Source of the DNA: Dehalogenimonas alkenigignens
GTDB taxonomy: Bacteria; Chloroflexota; Dehalococcoidia; Dehalococcoidales; Dehalococcoidaceae
DNA: 64,000 nt
Direction: 5' to 3'
NCBI RefSeq assembly: GCF_001466665.1
Contig: NZ_KQ758903.1
Location: forward strand, 1,485,684 to 1,549,683
Positions within the stretch are counted from its first letter, which is position 1; each line of letters begins with the position of its first letter. Below, piece after piece: positions 5,669 to 60,136 of the stretch. The notes below the pieces were generated by a model. The model ran no database searches. It saw only the letters and a program-made list of their open reading frames with translations, and was not told where the DNA came from. The translations under genes and the position numbers were made by a program.

Positions 5669-5875
5669 TCAAGATGAAACTCTTGGGGACGGTCCGCAAC
5701 CGGCTCCGCCGTAACTGCCAGCACCGCCCCCGATGCCGCAACTGAAATTTGATATCTTACGTTCAACTTCATAGGAGCCGCATTTTGGGCAGGTTACCGC
5801 CGCGGTATCGGACAGGCGGCGGAGCAACTCAAATTTCTTGGCGCAAGACTTGCATGAATACTCGTAAATAGGCAT
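5669..5875 (-). CDS. FmdB-type zinc ribbon protein 3
   Basis: A 68-residue zinc ribbon starting MPIYEYSCKSC and containing VTCPKCGSYEVERK, with a glycine/serine-rich tail that adds two more cysteines (FSCGIGGG and GAGCGPS). That tail resembles the FmdB forms annotated as regulatory. It has a GGAG-type ribosome site and its own candidate promoter upstream. It is most similar in its ribbon to copy 2, suggesting local duplication. Confidence 0.85.
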   Translation of the reverse strand: MPIYEYSCKSCAKKFELLRRLSDTAAVTCPKCGSYEVERKISNFSCGIGGGAGSYGGAGCGPSPRVSS

Positions 5876-5900
5876 CGTTCACTCCTGCATTGGATATTGT

Positions 5901-5927
5901 ATTATACTACATGATGTACAGCATCAA
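5901..5927 (-). promoter_or_regulatory. Candidate promoter with palindrome upstream of FmdB-type gene 3
   Basis: On the minus strand TTGATG and a perfect TATAAT are separated by 15 bp. The spacer holds the palindrome TACATGATGTA (5908-5918). The short spacer is a weakness; the palindrome may be an operator. Confidence 0.4.
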
Positions 5928-5971
5928 TGAAGTGACATTGGTTACACAGAATCGGGCTGCAAGGTTGAGAG

Positions 5972-6574
5972 ATGCCGAATTATTTTGAAGCTTTGGGCGT
6001 GTCCGATGCCGATCTGGCTGTCGCCCGCGGTCTGGCGGCAGGACACTTCAGCGGCCAATTTGGGGAAAAATACAAAAAGTATGTTGCCCGGGTCGGCGCG
6101 GCGCTGCTCGAAATTTACCCGCCGGCTCACAAGCTGCAGCCTGAAGAAATTATCGACCTGATCAGCGTCATCGACATCATCGGGCCCGATTCCAGAGGCC
6201 TGATGAAGCGGCTCAAGGAGTCATGCACCGGCTGCGGCTGGTGTTGTTCTCAAACGAAGCGGATCGTTGTCGACGAGGAAGATACCCTGCGCATCAGCCG
6301 TAAACTTAAGCAGAAGCGCGAAGACCTGTTTACTTTTGATGGCAAAGAATGGTTGATCAAAAAGGCGCATCCCTGCGGCTGGTGGAATCCAAAAAACGGC
6401 CGCTGCGTCATTTACGCCGACCGCCCGAGCACTTGCCGCGTCTGGCCGCTTGGTGTAACGGAGGCCGGCCATAAAACAATTCAACCGATGGAACACTGCA
6501 ATTACGCGGTGATGGTTACCGTCAATAAAGCGATCTGGACACTGGAGAGCGCCGCGAAACAGAGCGGCGCCTGA
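5972..6574 (+). CDS. YkgJ-family cysteine cluster protein
   Basis: A 200-residue soluble protein with the YkgJ-type cysteine cluster in its second half: CTGCGWCC near residue 80, then HPCGWW, RCVIY and STCRVWPLG. These cysteines are thought to bind a zinc or iron-sulfur centre; the family function is not established. The start ATG has an AGAG/AAGG purine run upstream. Only 13 bp separate it from the YgiQ-type radical SAM gene, so the two are probably co-transcribed. Confidence 0.8.
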   Translation: MPNYFEALGVSDADLAVARGLAAGHFSGQFGEKYKKYVARVGAALLEIYPPAHKLQPEEIIDLISVIDIIGPDSRGLMKRLKESCTGCGWCCSQTKRIVVDEEDTLRISRKLKQKREDLFTFDGKEWLIKKAHPCGWWNPKNGRCVIYADRPSTCRVWPLGVTEAGHKTIQPMEHCNYAVMVTVNKAIWTLESAAKQSGA

Positions 6575-25121: not shown

Positions 25122-26897
25122 GTGTGCGGCATCGTCGGCTACGTCGGCTCGCGCCAGGCTAAGACCGTTTTACTCGGCATGATGCTCCGACTGGAATACC
25201 GCGGCTACGATTCCTGTGGCCTGGCGACCGTTGAGACCGGGGTTAACCTTGTGAAAGCCGCGACGCGGGTCCAGGACCTTGCCGACCGGGGGATGGAAAT
25301 GCCGGGGACTTACGGGATAGGCCATACCCGCTGGGCCAGCGTCGGCACGGTAACTCAGGAAAACGCGCATCCATTCATGGCTTGCGACCAGGCTGTAGTT
25401 ATCGCCCACAATGGTAACATCAAGAACTTTGCCGAATTGAAAAAACGGCTGGAAAATTCCGGACATCAATTCTCATCGCAAACAGATTCCGAAGTGATTG
25501 CCCACCTGACCGAAGAATATTACCAGGGTGACTTAGTAGACGCGTTGGGAAAGGCAGTCAAAGAACTCGACGGTCCTTTCGCCGTCATCGCTCTGCATCC
25601 TGACAACCGGCGGCTGGTCGCTGCTGTAAATGGCTGCCCCATCGTCATAGGATTGGGCGAGGGAGAAAATTGGCTGGCGTCGGATGTGCCCGCTCTGCTG
25701 GAATACACCGGCCGGGTATTTCACCTGGAAGACGGCGACATCGCCGCCGTGGAAGCCGATTCCGTGAAGATATATGCAAAAGGAAGACTGGTCAGCCGGG
25801 CAAATCAAACAATCGGGTGGGCCCCGGAGGCTGTAGCCAGAGCCGGCTATCAACACCTGATGCTGAAAGAAATCCATGAACAGCCGCGGATTATTCGAAA
25901 CATAATCCAGCGAAAACAGTCAGCCTGGCTGCCAGGCGATTCTTTCGGAGAGACCACTTGCGGTGTTCTCCTCATCGGCTGCGGCAGTTCCTACCATGCC
26001 TGTCTGGCGGGAAAAATCTTGATAGAAAGGCTCTCGGGAATTCAAGCCAACGCCGAGCTGGCGACAGAGTTATTCGACGTCACAGGCTCCACGCGGCGAT
26101 ACCGGGCAGTGATCGGCCTGTCGCAGTCAGGCGAGACCGCCGATACCTGCGCCGCCTTAGACAGACAGCGCCAGGCAGGCTTTTATACGGTCGCTGTTTC
26201 AAACGTGCCAGGGTCCAGGATCACGCGCCTGGCCGAACAGACGATTCTCACCGATGCCGGGCCGGAAATGTCGGTTGCCGCCACCAAAAGCTTCACCGCC
26301 CAACTGGTCACTTTGCTCAATATGGGCCTGGCCTTACCGTTAAAAGAGCCCAAGCGGGCGCTCGATTTAACGGGGGAACTTCGGGCTCTGCCGGCGAGGC
26401 TGCAAAGGATTCTCGACCGGGAAGACGCTCATGCCTCCGCCGCCCGGTGGCTGGCATCCTTCAAGAACATTATCTGTATCGGGCGAGGCATATTTCTGCC
26501 GATTGCTCTCGAGTGCGCTTTGAAGCTGAAGGAAATTACGTATATCCACGCCGAGGGATGTGCCGCTGGCGAACTCAAGCACGGCACTCTGGCCTTGCTT
26601 TCGCCGGTCACCCCGGTGATCGCCTTCATGGGTACCGACGAGACGCGAGCGCAAATGCTGACCGCGATACGCGAAGTCAAGGCGCGGGGGGTTCCCGTGC
26701 TGGCGATAGCGCCCGAAGGCGAAGAGGATTTGGAGGATCTTGCTGACAGGGTCATCCTTCTACCCCGTACCGACCCCCTGCTCCAACCGGTGCTTGCCGC
26801 GGCAGCCGCCCAGATGCTGGCTTACCACGCTGCGCTTTCCCTGAATCTGCCTATCGACAACCCCCGTAATTTGGCGAAGAGCGTTACTGTCGAGTAA
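25122..26897 (+). CDS. glmS: Glutamine--fructose-6-phosphate aminotransferase
   Basis: A 591-residue enzyme making glucosamine-6-phosphate. It starts MCGIVGYVG, so Cys2 becomes the N-terminal nucleophile. The glutaminase domain has GHTRWA and the isomerase half has two SIS domains with GCGSSYHA, SQSGETADT and SVAATKSFTAQ, ending LAKSVTVE. The start codon is GTG one base after the preceding stop. With the two upstream genes it forms a short path from fructose-6-P to UDP-GlcNAc, probably for surface glycans since no murein genes are seen. Confidence 0.96.
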   Translation: MCGIVGYVGSRQAKTVLLGMMLRLEYRGYDSCGLATVETGVNLVKAATRVQDLADRGMEMPGTYGIGHTRWASVGTVTQENAHPFMACDQAVVIAHNGNIKNFAELKKRLENSGHQFSSQTDSEVIAHLTEEYYQGDLVDALGKAVKELDGPFAVIALHPDNRRLVAAVNGCPIVIGLGEGENWLASDVPALLEYTGRVFHLEDGDIAAVEADSVKIYAKGRLVSRANQTIGWAPEAVARAGYQHLMLKEIHEQPRIIRNIIQRKQSAWLPGDSFGETTCGVLLIGCGSSYHACLAGKILIERLSGIQANAELATELFDVTGSTRRYRAVIGLSQSGETADTCAALDRQRQAGFYTVAVSNVPGSRITRLAEQTILTDAGPEMSVAATKSFTAQLVTLLNMGLALPLKEPKRALDLTGELRALPARLQRILDREDAHASAARWLASFKNIICIGRGIFLPIALECALKLKEITYIHAEGCAAGELKHGTLALLSPVTPVIAFMGTDETRAQMLTAIREVKARGVPVLAIAPEGEEDLEDLADRVILLPRTDPLLQPVLAAAAAQMLAYHAALSLNLPIDNPRNLAKSVTVE

Positions 26898-32067: not shown

Positions 32068-32402
32068 CCGATTTCTCCTCAGAATACAGTGTCCAGAATA
32101 GTAACATATGGGGCGCCGCGGCACAAAACCTGGAACTGCGGTTGGGTTCAAATTAATCATGCTACCGGTTACAAACTATTAACTAAGGACAACTATATAT
32201 TAAAGGTTCAGTAATCTTAGTCTCATTAAATATAGGCATGATGGCGGATATACCAAAGCCAGGTTACGAAATACAATCTATACCAAGTCAATCAACTTAC
32301 TTAGAGAATGTGAAATCGAAAGCGAGGGTTTAAGTATCGGATGATAAAGTGAATTGCACTGAAGTGGTAGCAACAATTACAACAGAAGGAAAAGGGGGAA
32401 AT
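32068..32402. other. Intergenic region upstream of rdhA1
   Basis: About 335 bp, visibly richer in A and T than the flanking genes. No gene or transposase remnant was found. It must hold the promoters of cbiE (minus) and rdhA1 (plus). An A/T-rich TAAAGT at about 32344 is a weak -10 candidate. No clear operator was identified. Confidence 0.5.
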
Positions 32403-33788
32403 ATGAAACAGTATCATTCTACGATGAGTCGGCGAGATTTCATGAAAGCGATAGGAGTGGCCGGCGCCGGGATCGCCGCCGCGGGCGCGGCAGCCCCGGT
32501 GTTCCATGACCTGGATGAAATGGCTGCTGCCGGTAGCGGCTACAGACGCCCCTGGTGGGCCAAAACAACGGAAACCCCTACCACCGAGATCGATTGGCAG
32601 AACATGAAGAAGTTCTCGGAAGGCAATACCATGCGCGGCAAAGGAACGGAATATCTTTTGACTTACATCGACAAAGCTGAACAGGACCGCCGGGCTGCCG
32701 CCAAAACCGAGGCGGTCAAAGCGCATAAAGCCGCCAAAGACCCCGGATATACTGCCCGGGATTACGCCTTCAGCGGCAATGCCTCCCGCGGTCTCACCAG
32801 CAATGGTTTTGAGAACTGGAAAACGGCATCCACTCCCGAAAAACTCGGGCTCCCGAAGTGGGAAGGGACGCCAGAAGAAAATGCCTCGGTCGTACGCAGT
32901 TTTTTACGGTTCAACGGCATGCTGTCCATCGGCTTCACGCGGTTGGAAACGGACACAACCATGAAACTGATGTATGAATACGGGCCGAACAACAAGGAAA
33001 AATACACCTTTGCCGATGTCGACGCTCCATCATACGTTTCCGGTAAGGAGCAGGTATATCCGAACAAATGCAAATGGGTGATTACCGTGGTCAATCAGGA
33101 ATCCCAGGAGTTGTGGAAGCGGAATCCGTATCCACTGCAGGTCCAGATCCGCTATCCGCGGGCTCAATGGATTCAGGAGCAATTTCAGGGCTTTATGACT
33201 TCCCTGGGATACTACGCTCTCTCCGAGGGCGGCAACGGCACCGGCATCGCTCCGGCTTTCGGCGTTATGTCCGGTCTGGGTGAAATGGGGCGGATGAACC
33301 GGATGATCACTCCCGAGTGGGGGCCCACAGTAGGTATTTTCCGGTATGTGACCGACCTGCCTCTGCCCGACGACAAACCCATAGATGCCGGTTTTCTTGA
33401 GTTCTGCAAAACATGCAAGAAATGCGCTGAAGCATGCATTGAGGGCGCCCATTCGTTTGACAAAGAACCCAGCTGGGAAGTTTCCGGCCCGTGGAATAAC
33501 CCCGGCCACAAAGCCTGGTTTGAGGATTCCCGCAAGTGCCGAGCGTACCAGTCCTTGCCGGACAGCTGCAATGCCGGAACCTGCCTGGCGGTCTGCACTT
33601 TTACCAAATACGAAAAGGCCGGCATCCACAATGTGGTAAAAAGCGTCGCCAGCACGACCCCGATGTTCAACGCCTTTTTCCGCCAGATGGATGACTTCAT
33701 GGGCTACGGGTTGAAGGATCCGGCCAGCTTCTGGGACATTTGCCCGCCCATCTATGGCGTTGAAAACACAGTCGGTTACGATTACTAG
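32403..33788 (+). CDS. Reductive dehalogenase catalytic subunit RdhA1
   Basis: A 461-residue corrinoid/Fe-S enzyme that removes halogens outside the cell membrane as a terminal respiratory reductase. A Tat signal with SRRDFMK (Arg10-Arg11) and a hydrophobic stretch precede PVFHDLDE. The first Fe-S motif is C335, C338, C341, C345 (CxxCxxCxxxC, lacking the usual following Pro). The second is C-x9-C-x4-C-x3-C, where CxxC is usual for the middle pair. The ATG at 32403 has AAGGGGG upstream. No rdhB anchor gene lies on either side. Substrate cannot be read from sequence. Confidence 0.93.
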   Translation: MKQYHSTMSRRDFMKAIGVAGAGIAAAGAAAPVFHDLDEMAAAGSGYRRPWWAKTTETPTTEIDWQNMKKFSEGNTMRGKGTEYLLTYIDKAEQDRRAAAKTEAVKAHKAAKDPGYTARDYAFSGNASRGLTSNGFENWKTASTPEKLGLPKWEGTPEENASVVRSFLRFNGMLSIGFTRLETDTTMKLMYEYGPNNKEKYTFADVDAPSYVSGKEQVYPNKCKWVITVVNQESQELWKRNPYPLQVQIRYPRAQWIQEQFQGFMTSLGYYALSEGGNGTGIAPAFGVMSGLGEMGRMNRMITPEWGPTVGIFRYVTDLPLPDDKPIDAGFLEFCKTCKKCAEACIEGAHSFDKEPSWEVSGPWNNPGHKAWFEDSRKCRAYQSLPDSCNAGTCLAVCTFTKYEKAGIHNVVKSVASTTPMFNAFFRQMDDFMGYGLKDPASFWDICPPIYGVENTVGYDY

Positions 33789-45284: not shown

Positions 45285-46091
45285 TTAAGGGAGTTCCAAT
45301 ACACCATAACCGCGGTAAGTAGGAGTCGCCCGGACATCTTCGTTATTGCCGTAAGCCCAAACGAACAGGTTCGGTCCGGAGAGCAGCGGCAGGTCGAAAG
45401 CGTCTCCTGTGGTGAACCGGCGGCGGAACTCAAGAACGGTATAGGGCGGGCTTTCACTCTCGTCGCTGGCAGCCGGGATCTCTTCCAGCGCCGCTCTCTC
45501 AAGCAGGCTCATCTGACCTCCGGTATCCGGGTCGCTGATCACCGACCAGTTGGGATAATGGGAATTTGACCACATATCATAGACATTGCCCGCGGCAACT
45601 CCGGCACCGCCGTATCCGGCGATCATATCCATCGGCCCGCTTCTTAAACTGTCGATGAACCCGATCCCAATCCATCCAGTGGTCGGCGCGCTAATGGCCA
45701 TATAAATAAACTGAGTGTCAGTTTTCCAGTACACCTGGAAGTTGGCGCCAACGACCAGGCTGCCTTCGTATTCGCCAATCTCAATTTTACCGTCAGCCTT
45801 CCAGTCAACCGGCCCTGTCGACGCCGGCGGCCCGCCGCCACCGGGGGGGTTATTGGAGGAGAAAAGGTCATCAGGAGACGAAATTATGCTGATTACCGAA
45901 TAACTGACGGACAGGAAAAGACCTATCGAAGATAAGACGACTCCGGCAATGGGCAAGCCTTTCTTGGCTGGCCGCCGCCTGAGGATGATGATGCCCCAGA
46001 CAAGGCCGATAATGGGAATAGGTAAACCGAAAAATGGGATCAGCCAGGTGAACAATGCGAGAATGCCAAGAACGAATACTTCACCGCCCAT
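45285..46091 (-). CDS. Membrane-anchored DOMON-like protein
   Basis: A 268-residue protein. Two hydrophobic helices at about residues 3-40 and a third at ~50-70 are followed by a Pro/Gly-rich linker (NNPPGGGGPP). A C-terminal extracytoplasmic domain reads DGKIEIGEYEGS, WKTDTQFIYMAISAPTTGWIGIGF and DMIAGY, resembling DOMON heme- or sugar-binding folds. The N-terminal part resembles DUF4190. AGGAGG lies 4 nt before the ATG at 46091; an upstream in-frame extension is not needed. Ligand is unknown. Confidence 0.7.
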   Translation of the reverse strand: MGGEVFVLGILALFTWLIPFFGLPIPIIGLVWGIIILRRRPAKKGLPIAGVVLSSIGLFLSVSYSVISIISSPDDLFSSNNPPGGGGPPASTGPVDWKADGKIEIGEYEGSLVVGANFQVYWKTDTQFIYMAISAPTTGWIGIGFIDSLRSGPMDMIAGYGGAGVAAGNVYDMWSNSHYPNWSVISDPDTGGQMSLLERAALEEIPAASDESESPPYTVLEFRRRFTTGDAFDLPLLSGPNLFVWAYGNNEDVRATPTYRGYGVLELP

Positions 46092-46139
46092 ATTGCCTCC
46101 TGAAGCTTGCCGGCGCTGTAGACAATGAAAACTTGGGTT

Positions 46140-46145
46140 ATTATA
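46140..46145 (-). promoter_or_regulatory. -10 element for the DOMON-like gene
   Basis: Perfect TATAAT on the minus strand, about 48 bp before the ATG. The best -35 (TTGGCT) is 19 bp upstream, which is longer than ideal. Confidence 0.45.
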
Positions 46146-46253
46146 CACCCAAGTAAATAAAGTCAGCCAACCGGAATCCGATGTTATATTATCCAATTAT
46201 GATGAAAAAGTGAAATATTTTTACATCACGGTTGTCTTACGATTGTTACCATC

Positions 46254-51925: not shown

Positions 51926-52135
51926 TTATATTCGGGATTCTTTGGTGGGTGTGGTCGAGGGGCCGGGCACGGATTCTTTTTCCGCGGTGAACGGGGAATA
52001 TCCGGTACCCAGCGGTTTGCCATCCCGGGTGATTTGGAGGCCGGTGCCGCAGCGGGCGCACGACTGATGGCGCGGGAACTGAAGTCCCCAGCCGACGCAT
52101 TCATAACCGCAGTTTGGGCATTTGCCTTGAAGCAT
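51926..52135 (-). CDS. Small zinc-ribbon protein
   Basis: A 69-residue protein with CPNCGYECVGWGL at the N-terminus and CARCGTGLQI about 18 residues later, so two CxxC pairs form a probable zinc ribbon. The tail is Pro/Ser/Thr-rich and disordered. No function is known. It is the last gene of the minus-strand run that includes glycerate kinase. Confidence 0.7.
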   Translation of the reverse strand: MLQGKCPNCGYECVGWGLQFPRHQSCARCGTGLQITRDGKPLGTGYSPFTAEKESVPGPSTTPTKESRI

Positions 52136-52195
52136 GACCTAATGATACACCAATAGTACGGGGAATAACAGGTTTTTTTGAAAATAACGCGGTAA

Positions 52196-53581
52196 TTAAA
52201 CTTTGGTACTATTCTCGAGCAGGTACAAAACAAAGTCGCCGACATTGGTCCCGGTATCACCTGTCACCACCAACGAATTCCCGATGCTCTTAAATGCGGA
52301 ATTACTATCAAAGTTATCGGTGAATTCCGTTAGATTGAGCCCGAGGCGATTTGCCTTCTCCAGCGTGGCGCGATCAGCCATGGCACCGGCGACATCCGGT
52401 ATGAAGTCAGAATCGTCGGTGCCGACAGATGCCACCAGCCACTCCCCGGGCATGGTTCTCAATTCCTGGAGGGCGACTAGGGCGTAGTGCTGGTTCCGGC
52501 CGCCGGCACCGGCAGTTGACGGTACCACGGGGGCTGTTTCGCCGCCGAAAATGACGGTATCAAACTCATTATACTTGCCACCAATAATATCGGCCGCGGC
52601 CAGGCAAGCGGCGGAGGCAGTTTCCCCGGAAATATATGAAGGCGAAATCCAAACACGGCGCCCAAGATCTTTAGCGCGGGTCTGCATCGCCGTCAGAGCC
52701 AGCTGATTATCGGCAATTGTAAAATTATGGCAATTAGGAAGGGATTTGGGAGTATCTGGCACACTTCCATCCCTACCCTTCATGAGGTGGTTCATCACCT
52801 TCGGCGGTAACCGCGCAGCCAATTTATACCGGTAGATTACGCCCAGAGCATCATCGAAAGTGGACGTATCCGCCGCCGTCAAACCGGAGGCGATGACGGA
52901 CGGATCGTTGCCTGAAACGTCGGAAATTATCAGCGATATCACTTGGGCGGGGGAAAAATGCCGCCCCAGGTTGCCGCCTTTGATTTTTGACAGGTGCTTT
53001 CTCACGACATTGATTTCAGTGATGTTCGCCCCGGACTTTATCAGAATATCGACAGCTTGTTGTTTATCAGACAGGCTTATTCCTGAAGCTGGGCTGGACA
53101 GCAAAGCCGAACCGCCGCCTGAAATCAGGCAAACCACCAGATCTTCGCCGGTGATGTCGAACATGTTCTTGAAGCCTAGAATACGTTCAGCAGCCTGAAC
53201 GCTGCGTTCATCGGGTATCGGATGCCCGGTATTGACGACTTCAACGCGACGGGTCTGGTAGTTACCGCCTTTGCCGGCAACCAGACCCGCGCAAATATGA
53301 TCAGGAGCGATAATTTTTTCCAGAGAGACTGCCAAAGCGCCGGAAGCTTTACCGCCGCCGACAATAAATAGCCGGCAAGGGATCTGGAATCGGTGGCCGG
53401 GAATATCGAGCGTCCGGCTTGATGGATTGAAACTGAGCACTGAAGGGATGACCCGGTCCGGCTGAACGCTCTGGATGCCGGCTTCAATCAAGTCAATAGC
53501 AAGCCGCCGCAGAGGAGACAAACCCAGTTCTTCGCCGTTTTTGATTATCATCGGTTTCGCCCCAGGCAGGATTATAATCAA
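52196..53581 (-). CDS. Glycerate kinase, type II (MOFRL/DUF4147)
   Basis: A 461-residue cytosolic kinase making 2-phosphoglycerate or 3-phosphoglycerate. The N-terminal DUF4147 domain has VGGGKASGALA and LISGGGSALLSSP; the C-terminal MOFRL domain has FGGETAPVVPSTAGAGGRNQHYAL and VGTDDSDFIPDVAGAM. The start may be the ATG at 53551 rather than 53581. It follows the PstS-like gene by 41 bp on the same strand, but a metabolic link to dehalogenation is not evident. Confidence 0.92.
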   Translation of the reverse strand: MIIILPGAKPMIIKNGEELGLSPLRRLAIDLIEAGIQSVQPDRVIPSVLSFNPSSRTLDIPGHRFQIPCRLFIVGGGKASGALAVSLEKIIAPDHICAGLVAGKGGNYQTRRVEVVNTGHPIPDERSVQAAERILGFKNMFDITGEDLVVCLISGGGSALLSSPASGISLSDKQQAVDILIKSGANITEINVVRKHLSKIKGGNLGRHFSPAQVISLIISDVSGNDPSVIASGLTAADTSTFDDALGVIYRYKLAARLPPKVMNHLMKGRDGSVPDTPKSLPNCHNFTIADNQLALTAMQTRAKDLGRRVWISPSYISGETASAACLAAADIIGGKYNEFDTVIFGGETAPVVPSTAGAGGRNQHYALVALQELRTMPGEWLVASVGTDDSDFIPDVAGAMADRATLEKANRLGLNLTEFTDNFDSNSAFKSIGNSLVVTGDTGTNVGDFVLYLLENSTKV

Positions 53582-53622
53582 AGGGCTGGAGCTTTGACAC
53601 CTTGTTAGATTGGATGGGGATT

Positions 53623-54555
53623 TTACTGGTCCAGGTTGGGGAAAAATAGTCTCAGATACCCGCCGAGCATAACCATGTCCTGCCCCGGCTCGGACAGGCA
53701 GAAATCAATGAATTCCTGCACTATGCCACCCGGCTGGCCGTCCGTATAGTAATACAGGGGGCGGTAGATGGGGAAGATTCCGGCCGAAGTGGTTTCCAAA
53801 CAGGCTTTTGAGGGCTCTTCACCGGCGGTGTGGGCGATCCAGGTCGGCGTCACTTCCTGGGTGACGATGTTGACCGGCGTGAAAAAGACGGCGAACGGGT
53901 TTTCGGCCACCAGGTCGTTGCCTTCTTCGGCCGACCTGACGAAGATTACATTTGACCCGAACTCGATGGTTTCATCCGCAGAAGGCAAACCGTACAGCCG
54001 CAATACCTTCGCCTTAAAGAAATCATAAGCCGGGGTGCCAGGCGGCATGGCGTAAACGGCTATTGGTTCGTCCGGCCCGCCAAGTTCTTTCCAGTTGACG
54101 ATCCGGCCGCTGTAAATGCCGGATACCTGCTCCAGCGTCATCAGTTCCACCGGATTCCACGGCCAGCGGATGACAGATAACGCGTCCGAAGCAATTCGGA
54201 TGCGATTTGTTTCTATCCCGGGCGCCGTTTCGGCATCGGCCGGTCCCAGCCGCGGCATTGACTGGTATATCGCAGCGCCGCGGGACAAAGCGTCAATACC
54301 GGAGAACGCATCCTCAACGACCGTTATAACCACCCCGGGATGCAGCTTCATGAATTCGGCCGCCCAAACCCGGGACAACGGCGCCACCAGCGGGTCACCG
54401 CTAATGGTAAAGGAGCCGGTAAGGTCACTGGATCGATCAATATCTGTAGTATCACCGGCGCCGGAATTATTGGAAGGGAGAAACGCCAGGATCATCAATG
54501 CCGCGGCCGGTATTACCAGCGGCAGCAAATTATTTTTGGTACTGAACTGCTTCAT
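53623..54555 (-). CDS. PstS-like solute-binding protein coupled to rdhA2
   Basis: A ~310-residue exported protein of the phosphate-binding (PstS/PBP-like) family. An N-terminal hydrophobic helix (LLPLVIPAAALMILAFL) without a clear cleavage site or lipobox suggests membrane tethering. The family blocks are TGSFTISGDPLVAPLSRVWAAEF, LSVIRWPWNPVELMTLEQVSGIYSGRIVNWKELGG and IYRPLYYYTDGQPGG. The TGATG overlap with the rdhA2 stop indicates translational coupling; GTG at 54558 is an alternative start. No pstCAB lies nearby. It could sense anions, or serve as a membrane partner for RdhA2. Confidence 0.82.
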   Translation of the reverse strand: MKQFSTKNNLLPLVIPAAALMILAFLPSNNSGAGDTTDIDRSSDLTGSFTISGDPLVAPLSRVWAAEFMKLHPGVVITVVEDAFSGIDALSRGAAIYQSMPRLGPADAETAPGIETNRIRIASDALSVIRWPWNPVELMTLEQVSGIYSGRIVNWKELGGPDEPIAVYAMPPGTPAYDFFKAKVLRLYGLPSADETIEFGSNVIFVRSAEEGNDLVAENPFAVFFTPVNIVTQEVTPTWIAHTAGEEPSKACLETTSAGIFPIYRPLYYYTDGQPGGIVQEFIDFCLSEPGQDMVMLGGYLRLFFPNLDQ

Positions 54556-55955
54556 CACCAGTCTTTGACCCCAAACCCTTTCAGCTCGTCATAAGGCCAT
54601 TTGGAAAGATCACGCTGCCACCAGTCTTCACGTTCCGCATCACTTTTCTGCCGCCCGTAGCCGAACGCGCGGTCCATACCGGCAAAGAAACCATTCAGCG
54701 CCGGCGTCACGGCCGAGGCCGCTCTGACCATGTTATGAATAGAGGCATCCGGAGGATGGTTGAAGGGGCAGGTCATCTGGCAGTTAGAACAGTCATGCGG
54801 CCCGCCCCACTCGGCACACTTCTGCCAGTGCTGGTGGAAGCCTTTAAAGCCGCCGCGGTTCCATTGCCCGGCAACTTCCCACGAGGTGTCATCGTCCAGC
54901 GACAGGGCGCCCGGCGGGCATATCTCGGCGCAACGCTTGCAGGACTTGCAGAATTCAGTCACCCCGGCATCAATCGGCCGGGTCGGCTGAAGCGGTAGAT
55001 CGGTTATCGCCCAATCAACGTAACGGATGGACAGGCCGTAATCCGGCGAGCAGCAGTAAGCGGTACGCCCCTGCTCCGCCAGTCCGGAGAACAAACCGAA
55101 AGGCACATTGGCCCGGACTTCCGGCTGCAGCGCCAGGTACCCGAGACCGTGCAGAAAACCGGTGACATTCCAGCGTATCTGAGGAGCATGCGAATAAGAG
55201 GCGTTGCGAGAAGCCTGACCGAGTTCGAAGGTTTTATTGCGGTCAGGTCCAGTATCATCCGTTCTCAAGGCATACAATGACTGGGGATAATTCTGCTTGG
55301 TAAGCCAGGTGAGAATCCAGCGGCAGCGGCTGGGAATATGGTACACACCGGCTGCATCGATATAAGCAGCCGGGATATCTTCCCAGATGGTCGTGCCGAG
55401 GTCGAACAGGCGCTTCGTATGCTCATTCACCTCGATAGCCCCGACCCGGGGTGCGCCGTAAAAATGAGCCGCGGCTCTCATCATCTGCAGATTGTCTTCA
55501 GGAGCCCCCTGCCAGGCCGGCAGACCGCGGTCGGCCGGAGACGCGGTGCGGATGTTGCCCTGCCAGCCGAGATGCTGCATATTAAAGTTGTCATAAGTGG
55601 CCTCGTCCAGGGCGATGTCCCGGAGCGTGCCACCGGGAGTATTGTCGGCAACGTCCCGGACATGCCGGGCGTTGCGTTCATCAGCCTGCCTTTTCACCAG
55701 CGAAAGCGGCAGCATGTATAGCTTACGGGTATCATACGGCCTGAACATATCCCAATCGATCGGCGTGGTCAGGTCTTCGAAATCCCGCTCTTTCTGCCAC
55801 CACTTGCGGTAATGGTGGGTGTCTGCCCCAGCGGCGAGTTCATCCAGGTCATGAAACAGCGGACCGCCGGCCGCGGCCAGCGACATGCCGGCTCCGGTCA
55901 GGCCGAGACCTTTCATGAAATCACGCCTTGAGATGTTTGAATGGAATTTGCTCAT
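54555..55955 (-). CDS. Reductive dehalogenase catalytic subunit RdhA2
   Basis: A 466-residue exported corrinoid/Fe-S enzyme. The Tat signal is SRRDFMKGLGLTGAG with Arg10-Arg11, followed by PLFHDLDE. The first cluster motif is CKSCKRCAEICPPG (CxxCxxCxxxCP) and the second C-x8-CSNCQMTCP, the canonical spacing. The corrinoid-binding core lies between. No rdhB follows; instead a PstS-like gene overlaps by one to four bases. A terminator separates it from rdhA3, so it probably has its own promoter in 55956-56097, where none is obvious. Confidence 0.94.
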   Translation of the reverse strand: MSKFHSNISRRDFMKGLGLTGAGMSLAAAGGPLFHDLDELAAGADTHHYRKWWQKERDFEDLTTPIDWDMFRPYDTRKLYMLPLSLVKRQADERNARHVRDVADNTPGGTLRDIALDEATYDNFNMQHLGWQGNIRTASPADRGLPAWQGAPEDNLQMMRAAAHFYGAPRVGAIEVNEHTKRLFDLGTTIWEDIPAAYIDAAGVYHIPSRCRWILTWLTKQNYPQSLYALRTDDTGPDRNKTFELGQASRNASYSHAPQIRWNVTGFLHGLGYLALQPEVRANVPFGLFSGLAEQGRTAYCCSPDYGLSIRYVDWAITDLPLQPTRPIDAGVTEFCKSCKRCAEICPPGALSLDDDTSWEVAGQWNRGGFKGFHQHWQKCAEWGGPHDCSNCQMTCPFNHPPDASIHNMVRAASAVTPALNGFFAGMDRAFGYGRQKSDAEREDWWQRDLSKWPYDELKGFGVKDW

Positions 55956-56097
55956 TGGATAACCGTTTTTACGCTGCCGATACTAACTCATTAAAGACTC
56001 TGCACTAACATTATGTAATATAAACGTCCGGCGGTCAATCCGCCATCATGCTTAGTTTACGTTAGGGAAAGATTACCTTCCAAGTGAACTCCGTTTG

Positions 56098-56133
56098 AAG
56101 AATAGAGGCGGGCTCGCGCCCGCCTCTATTCTT
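56098..56133 (-). terminator. Terminator between rdhA3 and rdhA2
   Basis: A 16-bp stem (GAATAGAGGCGGGC core and complement) with a 4-nt loop, and T-rich sequence on either side. It ends the rdhA3 transcript 35 bp past its stop. Confidence 0.8.
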
Positions 56134-56167
56134 GTTTTCCGGGCTGGATGCTCCAGCTTGGAAAAGC

Positions 56168-57682
56168 TTATTTCTTGTAGCCGCCGTCGAATGAGGTGAC
56201 GGTGGAGTCCATGCCGAAGACCGGGAAGGAGCGATCCCACCATTCCTCAGCCTTGGGGGAACCACCCTCATGGGTACCGGCACCATATTCGAATACCTCG
56301 CCCATGCGGAAGAAGAAGTTGTTGAGCGGGCCAATCTGTATATTGGATATGGTGCCTCGGATGAGTTCGTGCACCATGGCGCCCTTGTTGGTGGTGAAGG
56401 TGCAGTTGCCCCAGCAGACATTGCAGCCGTCAAGCTCGGTGCGGACCATGCGGCAGGCGGCGCCGTCAGACCAGAACTCTTTGGTGCCCCTGTTGTGCAT
56501 CAGGTTGGGCTTGCCGTTGATGTCCGGGATCTCCCAGGTCGGCTCTTTGGCCAGCGAGATGCACTCGGCCGGGCAGGCGCGGGCGCACTTGCCGCAGTCG
56601 GCGCAGAACTTGAACATGCCGGCATCGATGGGATGGGTCGCGGCTACCGGCATATCGGTGATGTAGGAGTGAATGCGGCCGATGGGGCCCAGTTCAGGGG
56701 TCAGGCTGTAAACGTTGTTGCGGGAGGATTCAGCCACGCCGGTGAGGTTGGCCACAGCGGCTTCAATGAACGGATAGTTGGAGTCTCCGCCGTCGCCGAT
56801 CATCTGGTAGCCCATGTAGCGCAGGAAGTTGTAGACCGAGGGTTTGAGCGCGGTGGCCACGAAGTCCGAGCCGTTGAAGCGGCCGCCCATGGCCGGTGCG
56901 GCGCGGGACATTTCGTGGGACATGTGCTCCCAGTGAACCAGGTGATACATCTGATTCTTGGCCGGTACCGCCAGAGCGGTGGAGTTTTCGTAGGCGGTAT
57001 CGGCGGTATCGTCAATGATGAACTTCTTGGCGGCGTTGTGCTTAACGTTAGTGCACAGCAGTTTCTCGCGGTCCAGCGAAGAGAATTCGCCGTAGCCGGA
57101 GATGGCGGCGCCGACGTACTTCTGGTAGGCGTTCAGCATGTGGCTGTTCTCTTCCGGGGTGCCGTTCCACTTGGGCTCGCCGCGGTCGGCGGGGGTGGCA
57201 ACACCCTTGTAGGTGGCGCCGCCGCCCTTGGTCCAGGTGCCGTTGGTGGAAGCGCCGGCCCAGGACTTGCTGACGTAAGCGGACCAGGAGGTGGTCACCG
57301 CGGTCTTCAGGGCCTGGCCGCGGTAGGTGTAACCGGGAGCTTGAGCCGCGATCTTGGCTTTGGCGTACTCGGCGCCCTTAGCGGAGGCGGCATCGGCACG
57401 GGCCTGCCCGTGATAGTAAGCCCACATCTCGGTCTGCTGCCCGGTGTTCGTCGGGTTGGGGCGTTTAATGACATCCCAGTCAACTTCGGTGGTCGGGTTG
57501 TGGGCTTCGCGCTCCTTGACCCACCAGGGGCGCTTCTGCATGACAGCGCCGGCGGAAATGAGCTCATCGACATCATGGAAAGCCGGATTGACGGCCGCCA
57601 TGGCGCCGACACCGCCGGTCACCATCGCCATGACTTTCATGAACTCTCTGCGGCTGACGGTACTGTGAAACTTGTTCGACAC
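56168..57682 (-). CDS. Reductive dehalogenase catalytic subunit RdhA3
   Basis: A 504-residue exported corrinoid/Fe-S enzyme, the longest of the three. The Tat motif is SRREFMKVMAMVTGG with Arg11-Arg12, then PAFHDVDE. The first Fe-S motif is CADCGKCARACPAE and the second is C-x9-CNVCWGNC. The start is GTG at 57682 with AAGGAG 6 nt upstream. A low-complexity insert of Ala/Lys/Thr (around residues 95-150) is not seen in the other two. No rdhB is present; a lipoprotein gene lies 122 bp upstream and a cobalamin-type radical SAM gene before that. Confidence 0.94.
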   Translation of the reverse strand: MSNKFHSTVSRREFMKVMAMVTGGVGAMAAVNPAFHDVDELISAGAVMQKRPWWVKEREAHNPTTEVDWDVIKRPNPTNTGQQTEMWAYYHGQARADAASAKGAEYAKAKIAAQAPGYTYRGQALKTAVTTSWSAYVSKSWAGASTNGTWTKGGGATYKGVATPADRGEPKWNGTPEENSHMLNAYQKYVGAAISGYGEFSSLDREKLLCTNVKHNAAKKFIIDDTADTAYENSTALAVPAKNQMYHLVHWEHMSHEMSRAAPAMGGRFNGSDFVATALKPSVYNFLRYMGYQMIGDGGDSNYPFIEAAVANLTGVAESSRNNVYSLTPELGPIGRIHSYITDMPVAATHPIDAGMFKFCADCGKCARACPAECISLAKEPTWEIPDINGKPNLMHNRGTKEFWSDGAACRMVRTELDGCNVCWGNCTFTTNKGAMVHELIRGTISNIQIGPLNNFFFRMGEVFEYGAGTHEGGSPKAEEWWDRSFPVFGMDSTVTSFDGGYKK

Positions 57683-57703
57683 TATTTTCTCCTTGATTCT
57701 TTT

Positions 57704-57737
57704 TTGCGACTTTGTTTTTGCGACTTGTTTGCGACTT
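57704..57737 (-). repeat. Three direct repeats in the rdhA3 leader
   Basis: The plus-strand motif TTGCGACT occurs at 57704, 57718 and 57729, i.e. AGTCGCAA three times on the coding strand, immediately upstream of the rdhA3 ribosome-binding site. Spacings are 14 and 11 bp. It may bind a protein or affect translation, or be a slippage-prone tract. Confidence 0.6.
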
Positions 57738-57804
57738 TGGATCCCATGTTTGAACTTGAATCTGTTCTCTTCTAGACAATCACCTCCTTAGAAACACGCA
57801 GCGG

Positions 57805-58383
57805 TTAATCAGTATTGCCCAGGCCGACGCCGGTGCCTTCTAGGCCGTTGGCGCCGGTAGCTACCGGGTCGCCGATGTTGGCCGAATGCAGCCGCGGGTA
57901 GCAGCTGAAGGTCACGTTCATGTGGGCGTTTTCAATGACCACCATGCCGCTTTCATCCAGCCCGGTGACGATACCTCTGGCTTCAACCGTATCGGTCACC
58001 GCCAGGTACTGGAAGAATTCATCGCCGTTAGCCAGTTCGACCTTGATCTTTTCAGCCAGCGCCACATACGGCGAGGCGATTTTAGCCGTTACTACCGTCC
58101 GGCGGACGAAGACTTCCTGACCCACATACTGCTGCCAATTGGCTATTAGTTCGGCGTCGGTGACATCCACCCAGGTGATTTCCTCGACAATGGGCGTATC
58201 GTTGCCGCCAAGTTTCCCCCCGGTGGCGCCCGAGCCCAGGTCGACGGTGAAACCGTCACAGCCGGTCAGGGCGACCAGCATGGCCAGCCCGGCGATGCCC
58301 GTAGCCAACAGCGCCGGCTTGCCGCGGCGGTGCGGTTTGGTGGCGTCAACGCTCACCAGTTCCGCCCCAAGATAGTTACACAT
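57805..58383 (-). CDS. Predicted lipoprotein upstream of rdhA3
   Basis: A 192-residue protein. After a basic N-terminal region a hydrophobic helix ends in the lipobox LTGC (about residue 42), so the mature protein should be lipid-anchored outside the membrane. The mature part has a beta-rich region (YVGQEVFVRRTVVTAKI and EARGIVTGLDESGMVVIENA) like small OB-fold domains. The start is uncertain: ATG 58383 has GGAGGG but 13 nt away. It lies between a radical SAM gene and rdhA3 on the same strand. Confidence 0.75.
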   Translation of the reverse strand: MCNYLGAELVSVDATKPHRRGKPALLATGIAGLAMLVALTGCDGFTVDLGSGATGGKLGGNDTPIVEEITWVDVTDAELIANWQQYVGQEVFVRRTVVTAKIASPYVALAEKIKVELANGDEFFQYLAVTDTVEARGIVTGLDESGMVVIENAHMNVTFSCYPRLHSANIGDPVATGANGLEGTGVGLGNTD

Positions 58384-58419
58384 TGTGTCTACAGTGCCCT
58401 CCTTTGATCGTTATTCCTT

Positions 58420-59922
58420 TTATCCCGTCCCGGCGGTCATTACCACCGGAGATTCAGGTCTCTTTAGGAGCCAGTTTCGTGATGATCGTTTTTTTTCCGG
58501 ATTACGGCCGATGACCCGCTGGAATTTGACCAGCCAGGATTCGCGGCCGTTGGCGGAGTCGAACAGAGCGTTCAGGTAGTTCTTTATAAGATAGGAAAGC
58601 GAGCCGAAAAATTGCCCTGGTTCCCGTATCGCCGTAATGAAATAGGCCGGGTTATGCCGCAGCATGAAACGGAAGCGTCGGGTGGCAAATGTGGCGCGGA
58701 AACTGGCCAGGGCGTCATCCATCATCTTGACCGGGACCTGCGACAGGTTGGCAGCGGTGGCATGATGAAGCTGGAAAGTGGACCAGCCTGCAAGCCTGTC
58801 AGGGACGCTGACCAGTTTTTCTGCCACGCAGCGGTCAAATAGCACCGTCTTAGGATAGGGCACGAACTTCATGAACAGATACGGCGGGTTGTCCAGCCGT
58901 TTTATGAAATCGAGAGTCTCCTGAAAATCCGCGGCCGTTTCCGTCGGGAAGCCGTATTGAATGAAGAGCGTCGGGATAATCCGCTGGCGGACCAGATTCC
59001 AGAAGGTCTTCTCAAATTCCTGAACGTTGCCCTTGGTCAGTAGGTCAAGGATCTTCTGGCTGCCGCTCTCGGCGCCGAGGATAACGGCGGTGCAGCCCGC
59101 CCTGGCCATCAATTTGGCTGTCTCCTCATCAATCGTGCCTGAGATCTGGCAGTTCCACTTGAGTTTGAGTTTCTTGCCTATCATGATCCGGCAGAACTTG
59201 TGGAGCCGTTCCCGGTTGATACCGAAGTTATCGCCGGTATACATCAGATAGTTAACGCCGAATTCTTTATGTATCCGTTCCGATTGGGCGGCGATGCGCT
59301 CAGCGGAAAGGTCAGCGACGTTGCCTTTGTAGAAGCTGGCGTCGGCGCAGAAGGTGCAGGTATACGGGCAGCCGCGCGAGGTAATGATGGAGACATCCCA
59401 GTATTTTTTAGGATCGACGAGGTGCCAGGCCGGGTCGGGAAGCTCATCCAGAGCTTCAAGAAAGGGGCGGGGTTCATTAATAACGATATCTCGGCCGTTC
59501 TTCCAGGCCAGACCTTTAATTTTCGACACCTGGCCTTCGCCTTTTTCAAGATAGGCCGCCAGTTCAAGCAGGGTGTATTCCCCGGCGCCGATAACGACGT
59601 AATCGACGTATTCTTCCTGAAGTGTCTGTTCCGGCAGGGCCGACGGGTGTCGGAAGCCCCACACTGTTTTGATGTTGGGATATACCTTTTTGAACTCCAG
59701 GGCTTTCTTGATCGAGTCCGCGATACACCCCGTGGAAACGGAGAAACCCACCAGGTCGGGATTAAAATCAGCGAACGACTCCGCAGTCCGGTCACCCAGA
59801 TTGGCGTCGTGCAGCATTACTTTGTGACCGCCCTTTTCCAAAACGGCGGCAATCGACAGCAGTTCATCGGGGAACTTGGTGTACATGCCGTCGCGCAAAG
59901 GAATGCTCAGCAGGATTCTCAT
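58420..59922 (-). CDS. Cobalamin-binding-domain radical SAM protein
   Basis: A 500-residue protein. Residues ~1-130 form a B12-binding-like Rossmann domain (ELLSIAAVLEKGGHKVMLHDANL; no DxHxxG motif, as in many of this class). The radical SAM domain begins with IITSRGCPYTCTFCADASF, giving CxxxCxxC, and continues with GAESGSQKILDLL. The C-terminus resembles the usual DUF4070-like tail. ATG at 59922 has GAGAGG 4 nt upstream. Its position ahead of rdhA3 suggests a role in cofactor or lipid chemistry for that locus, but the reaction is unknown. Confidence 0.88.
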   Translation of the reverse strand: MRILLSIPLRDGMYTKFPDELLSIAAVLEKGGHKVMLHDANLGDRTAESFADFNPDLVGFSVSTGCIADSIKKALEFKKVYPNIKTVWGFRHPSALPEQTLQEEYVDYVVIGAGEYTLLELAAYLEKGEGQVSKIKGLAWKNGRDIVINEPRPFLEALDELPDPAWHLVDPKKYWDVSIITSRGCPYTCTFCADASFYKGNVADLSAERIAAQSERIHKEFGVNYLMYTGDNFGINRERLHKFCRIMIGKKLKLKWNCQISGTIDEETAKLMARAGCTAVILGAESGSQKILDLLTKGNVQEFEKTFWNLVRQRIIPTLFIQYGFPTETAADFQETLDFIKRLDNPPYLFMKFVPYPKTVLFDRCVAEKLVSVPDRLAGWSTFQLHHATAANLSQVPVKMMDDALASFRATFATRRFRFMLRHNPAYFITAIREPGQFFGSLSYLIKNYLNALFDSANGRESWLVKFQRVIGRNPEKKRSSRNWLLKRPESPVVMTAGTG

Positions 59923-60136
59923 GGCACCTCTCAAGAACGATAGGGTTCGCCGGATCCGGAAATTGTCCCGGTGTTAAGCTGGTATTAACCATCGTAATTC
60001 TAGTGTTGTCTTAGTTTAATCCTAATATCATGAAATAGGAATCCGCCAAGATACGTATTTTTAGTTATGATTTAATAACCTGAGAGGATTTTTTACTTTT
60101 TTATGGGCACGCGCGCAAATCAAACCGGCTTGAATG

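Follow-up and report, generated by a model that had tools for sequence, protein, structure and literature searches.

How might two exported reductive dehalogenases (RdhAs) be attached to the membrane when neither of their genes adjoins an rdhB, the gene for the usual membrane anchor? The question is raised by a 64,000-nucleotide stretch of Dehalogenimonas alkenigignens (contig NZ_KQ758903.1, positions 1,485,684 to 1,549,683; hereafter the window), in which two rdhA genes on one strand are preceded by a radical SAM gene (rSAM) and a lipoprotein gene (LIPO), and followed by a gene for a PstS-like protein (PstSL) that is coupled to rdhA2. This arrangement had been described from the letters alone, and gene calls checked against Pfam and NCBIfam agree with it, as does the overlap of the rdhA2 stop with the PstSL start (GTGATG). 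The genome under study is labelled G000 (1.85 Mb, one contig), and further genomes are labelled G001 to G006. The features of the locus, listed in the direction of reading, are as follows (aa, amino acids; nt, nucleotides; Tat, twin-arginine translocation).

58420..59934, minus strand: B12-binding radical SAM gene (rSAM; PF02310 and PF04055, BchE/PhpK/HpnJ-like superfamily), upstream of the cassette
57805..58383, minus strand: LIPO, lipoprotein with lipobox LTGC and a predicted OB-fold core at residues about 70-161 (lipobox and model)
57779..57790, minus strand: TAAGGAGGTGAT, 12-nt anti-Shine-Dalgarno complement (sequence pattern)
56168..57682, minus strand: RdhA3, 504-aa Tat-exported reductive dehalogenase (TIGR02486; putative match to DEALK_16330)
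56135-56165, minus strand: inverted repeat, the second one after RdhA3 (sequence)
56098..56133, minus strand: terminator-like hairpin of ~16 bp after RdhA3 (pairing kept in 4 genomes)
56010..56038, minus strand: promoter-like element TTGACC-N17-CATAAT upstream of RdhA2 (conservation)
54555..55955, minus strand: RdhA2, 466-aa Tat-exported reductive dehalogenase (TIGR02486; putative match to DEALK_16320)
53623..54558, minus strand: PstSL, divergent PstS overlapping the end of rdhA2 (PF12849)

A conserved four-gene cassette

The order rSAM-LIPO-RdhA3-RdhA2-PstSL is found with identical orientation in four of eight Dehalogenimonas genomes (G000, G003, G005 and G006), and in two genomic contexts: the flanks differ in G006, while the other three genomes share theirs. 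In G004 the flanks are those of G005, rSAM gene included, but exactly LIPO, RdhA3, RdhA2 and PstSL are missing, and DNA matches resume on both sides; this defines the unit as a four-gene cassette. LIPO lies beside RdhA3 in 5/5 loci and PstSL beside RdhA2 in 4/4; the neighbours are thus conserved with the rdhA orthologues, the point on which the sequence-only reading had staked itself. G006 carries a second LIPO-RdhA3 pair, located between genes for a LuxR-type response regulator and a PAS histidine kinase, whose products are 54% (LIPO) and 80% (RdhA3) identical to the query. The ratio of nonsynonymous to synonymous substitution rates (dN/dS) is below 0.4 for all cassette genes in each computable comparison; for RdhA2 and PstSL, dS is saturated in all pairs but the closest, G000-G003, which alone is informative for these two genes. 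The cassette genes are under purifying selection.

Both dehalogenases score above the TIGR02486 cut-off of 160.35 bits (RdhA3, 221 bits; RdhA2, 227 bits), and every orthologue of either has the Tat motif RRxFM and two C-terminal Fe-S cysteine motifs. LIPO-RdhA3-RdhA2-PstSL as an order-kept cassette, present in half of the eight genomes and in two contexts, is new here; among the papers that could be searched, none of relevance links a PstS or radical SAM gene to rdhA in Dehalogenimonas. That the dehalogenase cassette is real and conserved, and that two exported partners are linked to it, is well supported by these data. Two candidates elsewhere were set aside: an OpuAC lipoprotein beside an RdhA2 relative in G002, considered as a second case, belongs to a complete ABC transporter and is not comparable, and an 86-aa hydrophobic frame near an RdhA2 relative in G001 has no Pfam match, with no RdhB found beside that rdhA.

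The cassette falls into two halves. The hairpin after RdhA3 comprises 15-17 bp in 4/4 genomes, its letters varying and its pairing preserved, and 3' of it lies, again in 4/4, a promoter-like element with common GGCGGATTGAC and ACATAAT blocks. Among the fetched loci the extended promoter pattern occurs only at the RdhA3-RdhA2 gap; its shorter form matches once in G000, once in G003 and once in G005, and nowhere in the six remaining genomes of the search, from which G006 was absent. Across the four genomes the rdhA2-PstSL gaps are -4, -4, +11 and +16 nt. Given this conserved hairpin and promoter between the halves, and rdhA2 and PstSL genes that overlap or nearly touch, LIPO-RdhA3 and RdhA2-PstSL probably form two transcription units, which coincide with the pairing that had been guessed beforehand (LIPO with RdhA3, PstSL with RdhA2).

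A short element accompanies the first half. TAAGGAGGTGAT, a perfect 12-nt complement of the anti-Shine-Dalgarno sequence, stands directly after the LIPO stop and precedes RdhA3 by about 97 nt; it recurs at each of the five LIPO-RdhA3 junctions, in one case with a mismatch, about 80-100 nt before RdhA3. It is nearly unique in each genome (1-2 exact copies) and resembles mRNA-stabilising Shine-Dalgarno-like or ribosome standby elements.

The exported partners LIPO and PstSL

LIPO has the hallmark of a bacterial lipoprotein, a lipobox with an invariant cysteine after a hydrophobic stretch (LTGC, MAGC or LSGC in 5/5). It has no sequence match in Pfam, NCBIfam or PDB sequences; among 393 genomes of the class, a profile search matched only four, all Dehalogenimonas, and a search of viral contigs gave no useful relatives. 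An AlphaFold2 model, built on a shallow alignment of five sequences, has a core of ~90 residues with block means of 73-94 in pLDDT (predicted local distance difference test; whole-model mean 59), which matches known OB folds at Z about 10-11. LIPO is therefore predicted to have an OB-fold core, a match that indicates fold and not function. In its lipobox and predicted fold it is like the OB-fold lipoproteins (e.g. PDB 3f1z), and differs from them in having no database sequence match and in its confinement to four Dehalogenimonas genomes.

PstSL matches PF12849 at 65 bits and TIGR02136 at 113.6 bits, the latter below the cut-off of 206.6. Its best Foldseek matches are PstS (model mean pLDDT 69.6), in line with a PBP_like_2 fold. 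With the PstS phosphate-binding lipoproteins of TIGR02136 it shares this fold and 33-40% identity (canonical PstS of the order); it differs from them in its long separate branch, its missing lipobox cysteine, its replaced phosphate-motif residues and its surroundings, no transporter genes (pstCAB) lying beside PstSL, whereas canonical PstS copies elsewhere have them. Canonical PstS (23 sequences) share 43 conserved columns, of which all four PstSL have lost 14, many scaffold columns being retained. The lost columns include the lipobox cysteine and positions of the GS-T, SR, R and G(T) motifs; at the phosphate motifs, S55, T57, G84, S101, R102, R171 and G176 are gone from all four, positions whose role in phosphate binding we take from solved PstS structures. 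The replacements are common to all four as well (Met-Pro for Ser-Arg, Arg for Val131, Met for Arg171). An ordinary phosphate receptor is rejected by this loss of motif residues.

The four PstSL form one clade (100/100 support) with a long stem (1.34 changes per site). A recent duplication of the genome's own PstS is rejected by the tree (approximately unbiased test, p 0.0018), subject to a long-branch caveat, and a GTDB contig scan with PstSL gave no useful relatives. In 4/4 the N-terminus is hydrophobic, has no lipobox and contains signal-peptidase-I-like sites. As judged from these termini the protein may be either membrane-tethered or secreted; tethering is uncertain, and the earlier description of PstSL as membrane-tethered is not supported as written.

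The radical SAM gene and the flanks

Copies of the rSAM gene with 81-97% identity precede the cassette in G003, G005 and G006, and a 79% copy is present in G004 without the cassette; the gene is not strictly part of it. The window member, which has a B12-binding domain, reaches no curated family cut-off. G000 holds ten members of this family, related to the window's B12-binding member (at 26192, 668303, 853766-856628, 1022370, 1544106 and 1643896-1651316). Of its six clusters, four are found no more than 5 kb from an rdhA (random mean 0.69, P about 0.003); the family has expanded in Dehalogenimonas and is enriched in the vicinity of rdhA genes. The window enzyme is probably one of a broader set of rdhA-linked enzymes whose substrate would be a cofactor or a small molecule.

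Near the low-numbered end of the described range (51926-59934), a DUF4147/MOFRL gene and a small zinc-ribbon frame flank the unit without belonging to it. A DOMON-domain protein with a lipobox is encoded downstream of PstSL in G006 (5684-6337 of that locus stretch, minus strand), and the window has a DOMON protein at 45285-46196 (minus strand), about 7.4 kb from PstSL.

RdhB and how the two dehalogenases could be held

That no RdhB frame lies near any of the window's three rdhA genes, as first noted from the letters alone, was confirmed. A profile search of all six frames of the whole window, with four RdhBs from other stretches of G000 as positive controls, returned no RdhB, and its sensitivity rules out one concealed in another frame; RdhA2 and RdhA3 have no adjoining rdhB of the kind that marks an rdhAB operon. 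The whole-genome search of G000 found five RdhBs, in agreement with the published count, the nearest about 80-90 kb from the cassette. The absence of rdhB is by itself not new, being the published norm for the genus: in D. alkenigignens 26 of 29 rdhA genes lack one, those of RdhA2 and RdhA3 among them (PMC4918011), and a Dehalogenimonas genome usually has three to six rdhB (PMC13390414). RdhA2 and RdhA3 (466 and 504 aa; nearest relatives at 74% and about 80%, in one genome) appear to correspond to DEALK_16320 and DEALK_16330 of strain IP3-3, for which Table 5 of the genome report gives the cognate rdhB as 'None' (PMC4918011). The third rdhA of the window (32349-33788, plus strand) is also without rdhB and falls in a clade of rdhB-less RdhAs.

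Like the RdhAs of rdhAB operons (Dehalococcoides, Desulfitobacterium PceA2B2), both proteins are Tat-exported with two Fe-S motifs; unlike those operons, the locus has a lipoprotein gene upstream of RdhA3 and a PstS-like gene downstream of RdhA2 and no rdhB. In the tree RdhA3 belongs to a well-supported clade shared with RdhB-coupled relatives, and its Dehalococcoides relatives, at about 45% identity, have rdhB next downstream; no sampled member of the RdhA2 clade has rdhB downstream. In DhPceA, a hairpin of helices 17-18 packs against PceB and menaquinone (PMC10624902). A 2-residue insertion in the turn matching this PceB-facing hairpin is present in 5/5 LIPO-linked RdhA3 and 0/55 other RdhAs. 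RdhA2 retains the DhPceA residues of the quinone/PceB pocket (H, R, D, Y), and RdhA3 retains most of them (H, R/K, Y), with G in place of D, a substitution also seen in its RdhB-coupled Dehalococcoides relatives. A loss of RdhB-facing residues in rdhB-less RdhAs was not seen: they are equally conserved with and without rdhB.

One RdhB stands apart. A solo RdhB of 88-90 aa with an ExE motif is encoded in 8/8 Dehalogenimonas genomes (77-100% identity; G000:C1:519274-519537 in the genome under study), with no rdhA within 400 bp upstream in any of them. Its neighbourhood consists of housekeeping genes, and in 6/8 it adjoins a DNA polymerase III delta gene. The other RdhBs examined lie within about 52 bp of an rdhA, except for three further orphans (G000:18993, G004:1887120 and G003:1454809), of which the first matches the published orphan DEALK_00250 and lies beside an rdhA remnant. 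From its size and closest homologue, one solo RdhB is likely to be DEALK_05730, published as an orphan rdhB (PMC4918011) and here conserved in 8/8 genomes without an adjacent rdhA; this genus-wide conservation was not found reported in the literature examined.

We tentatively favor, with a confidence that stops just short of calling it probable, a dehalogenase cassette of two units, each of which couples one RdhA to an exported partner of its own. RdhA3 would be exported by Tat and dock on LIPO, which a lipid would tether to the outer side of the membrane and which would hold or position the dehalogenase; RdhA2, also exported by Tat, would bind PstSL, a former phosphate receptor whose new role may be that of a protein partner or a receptor for a different ligand, and not that of a membrane anchor. 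This model rests on the kept gene order, the two unit-like halves, co-inheritance, purifying selection, the LIPO lipobox and predicted OB fold, and the motif loss of PstSL, and it is favored by the insertion limited to LIPO-linked RdhA3. Several observations weigh against it: only four close species carry the cassette; every genome has a solo RdhB; the RdhA3 insertion and the PstSL losses each represent a single evolutionary event; because the lack of rdhB is ordinary in the genus and a comparable partner gene is missing near most of the other rdhB-less rdhA genes, no local replacement of RdhB is needed; and, with the DhPceA pocket residues largely retained, RdhB could still dock on both RdhAs. 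LIPO is a plausible candidate for a membrane anchor of RdhA3. PstSL, having lost its lipid anchor and carrying signal-peptidase-I-like sites, is a poor candidate, and its N-terminus makes an anchoring role doubtful. Of the original proposal that both could act as alternative anchors or electron-transfer partners, the conserved linkage held up; the ordinary lack of rdhB, a solo RdhB that could serve in trans and the poor suitability of PstSL as an anchor weaken it. We consider it unlikely that Dehalogenimonas evolved dedicated extracytoplasmic replacements of RdhB, with RdhA3 held by a lipid-anchored OB-fold protein and RdhA2 bound by a phosphate-blind PstS that serves as a subunit or delivers substrate.

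Anchoring of RdhA2 and RdhA3 in trans by an RdhB from elsewhere, most likely the solo RdhB, with LIPO and PstSL performing maturation, substrate capture or sensing, is a serious possibility that we nonetheless think somewhat improbable. The solo protein is present in every one of the 8 genomes and never beside an rdhA, would also serve the other 20-odd rdhB-less RdhAs, which is simpler than local replacements, and would meet RdhB-facing residues that are as well conserved in rdhB-less as in rdhB-coupled RdhAs. However, the one RdhB traced by complexome profiling in Dehalococcoides went with its own RdhA (PMC6005880), the RdhA3 insertion in the PceB-facing turn could hinder RdhB binding, and a trans anchor does not account for the persistence of LIPO and PstSL beside these RdhAs. 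PstSL could instead still be a receptor, for a non-phosphate ligand such as a halogenated or anionic substrate, passing it to RdhA2 or reporting to a sensor. Its two-domain periplasmic-binding-protein fold is retained, purifying selection persists after the long fast branch, and many of its lost positions are ligand motifs with new residues common to all four; yet no permease, ATPase or sensor gene is coupled to it and, to our knowledge, organohalides reach exported RdhAs without a receptor in the known systems, and we regard this role as rather doubtful. Least of all do we expect that the genes adjoin through common inheritance only, with unrelated functions: the cassette is indeed restricted to four closely related genomes, three with shared flanks, but its order survives in a second context although genus-wide synteny is poor (PMC13390414), LIPO and RdhA3 were duplicated as a pair, the four genes are jointly absent in G004, and rdhA2 and PstSL are tightly coupled.

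For the membrane attachment and electron supply of the mostly rdhB-less Dehalogenimonas RdhAs, the cassette offers two concrete candidate partner proteins, LIPO and PstSL, and the genus-wide solo RdhB is a competing, single-anchor candidate.

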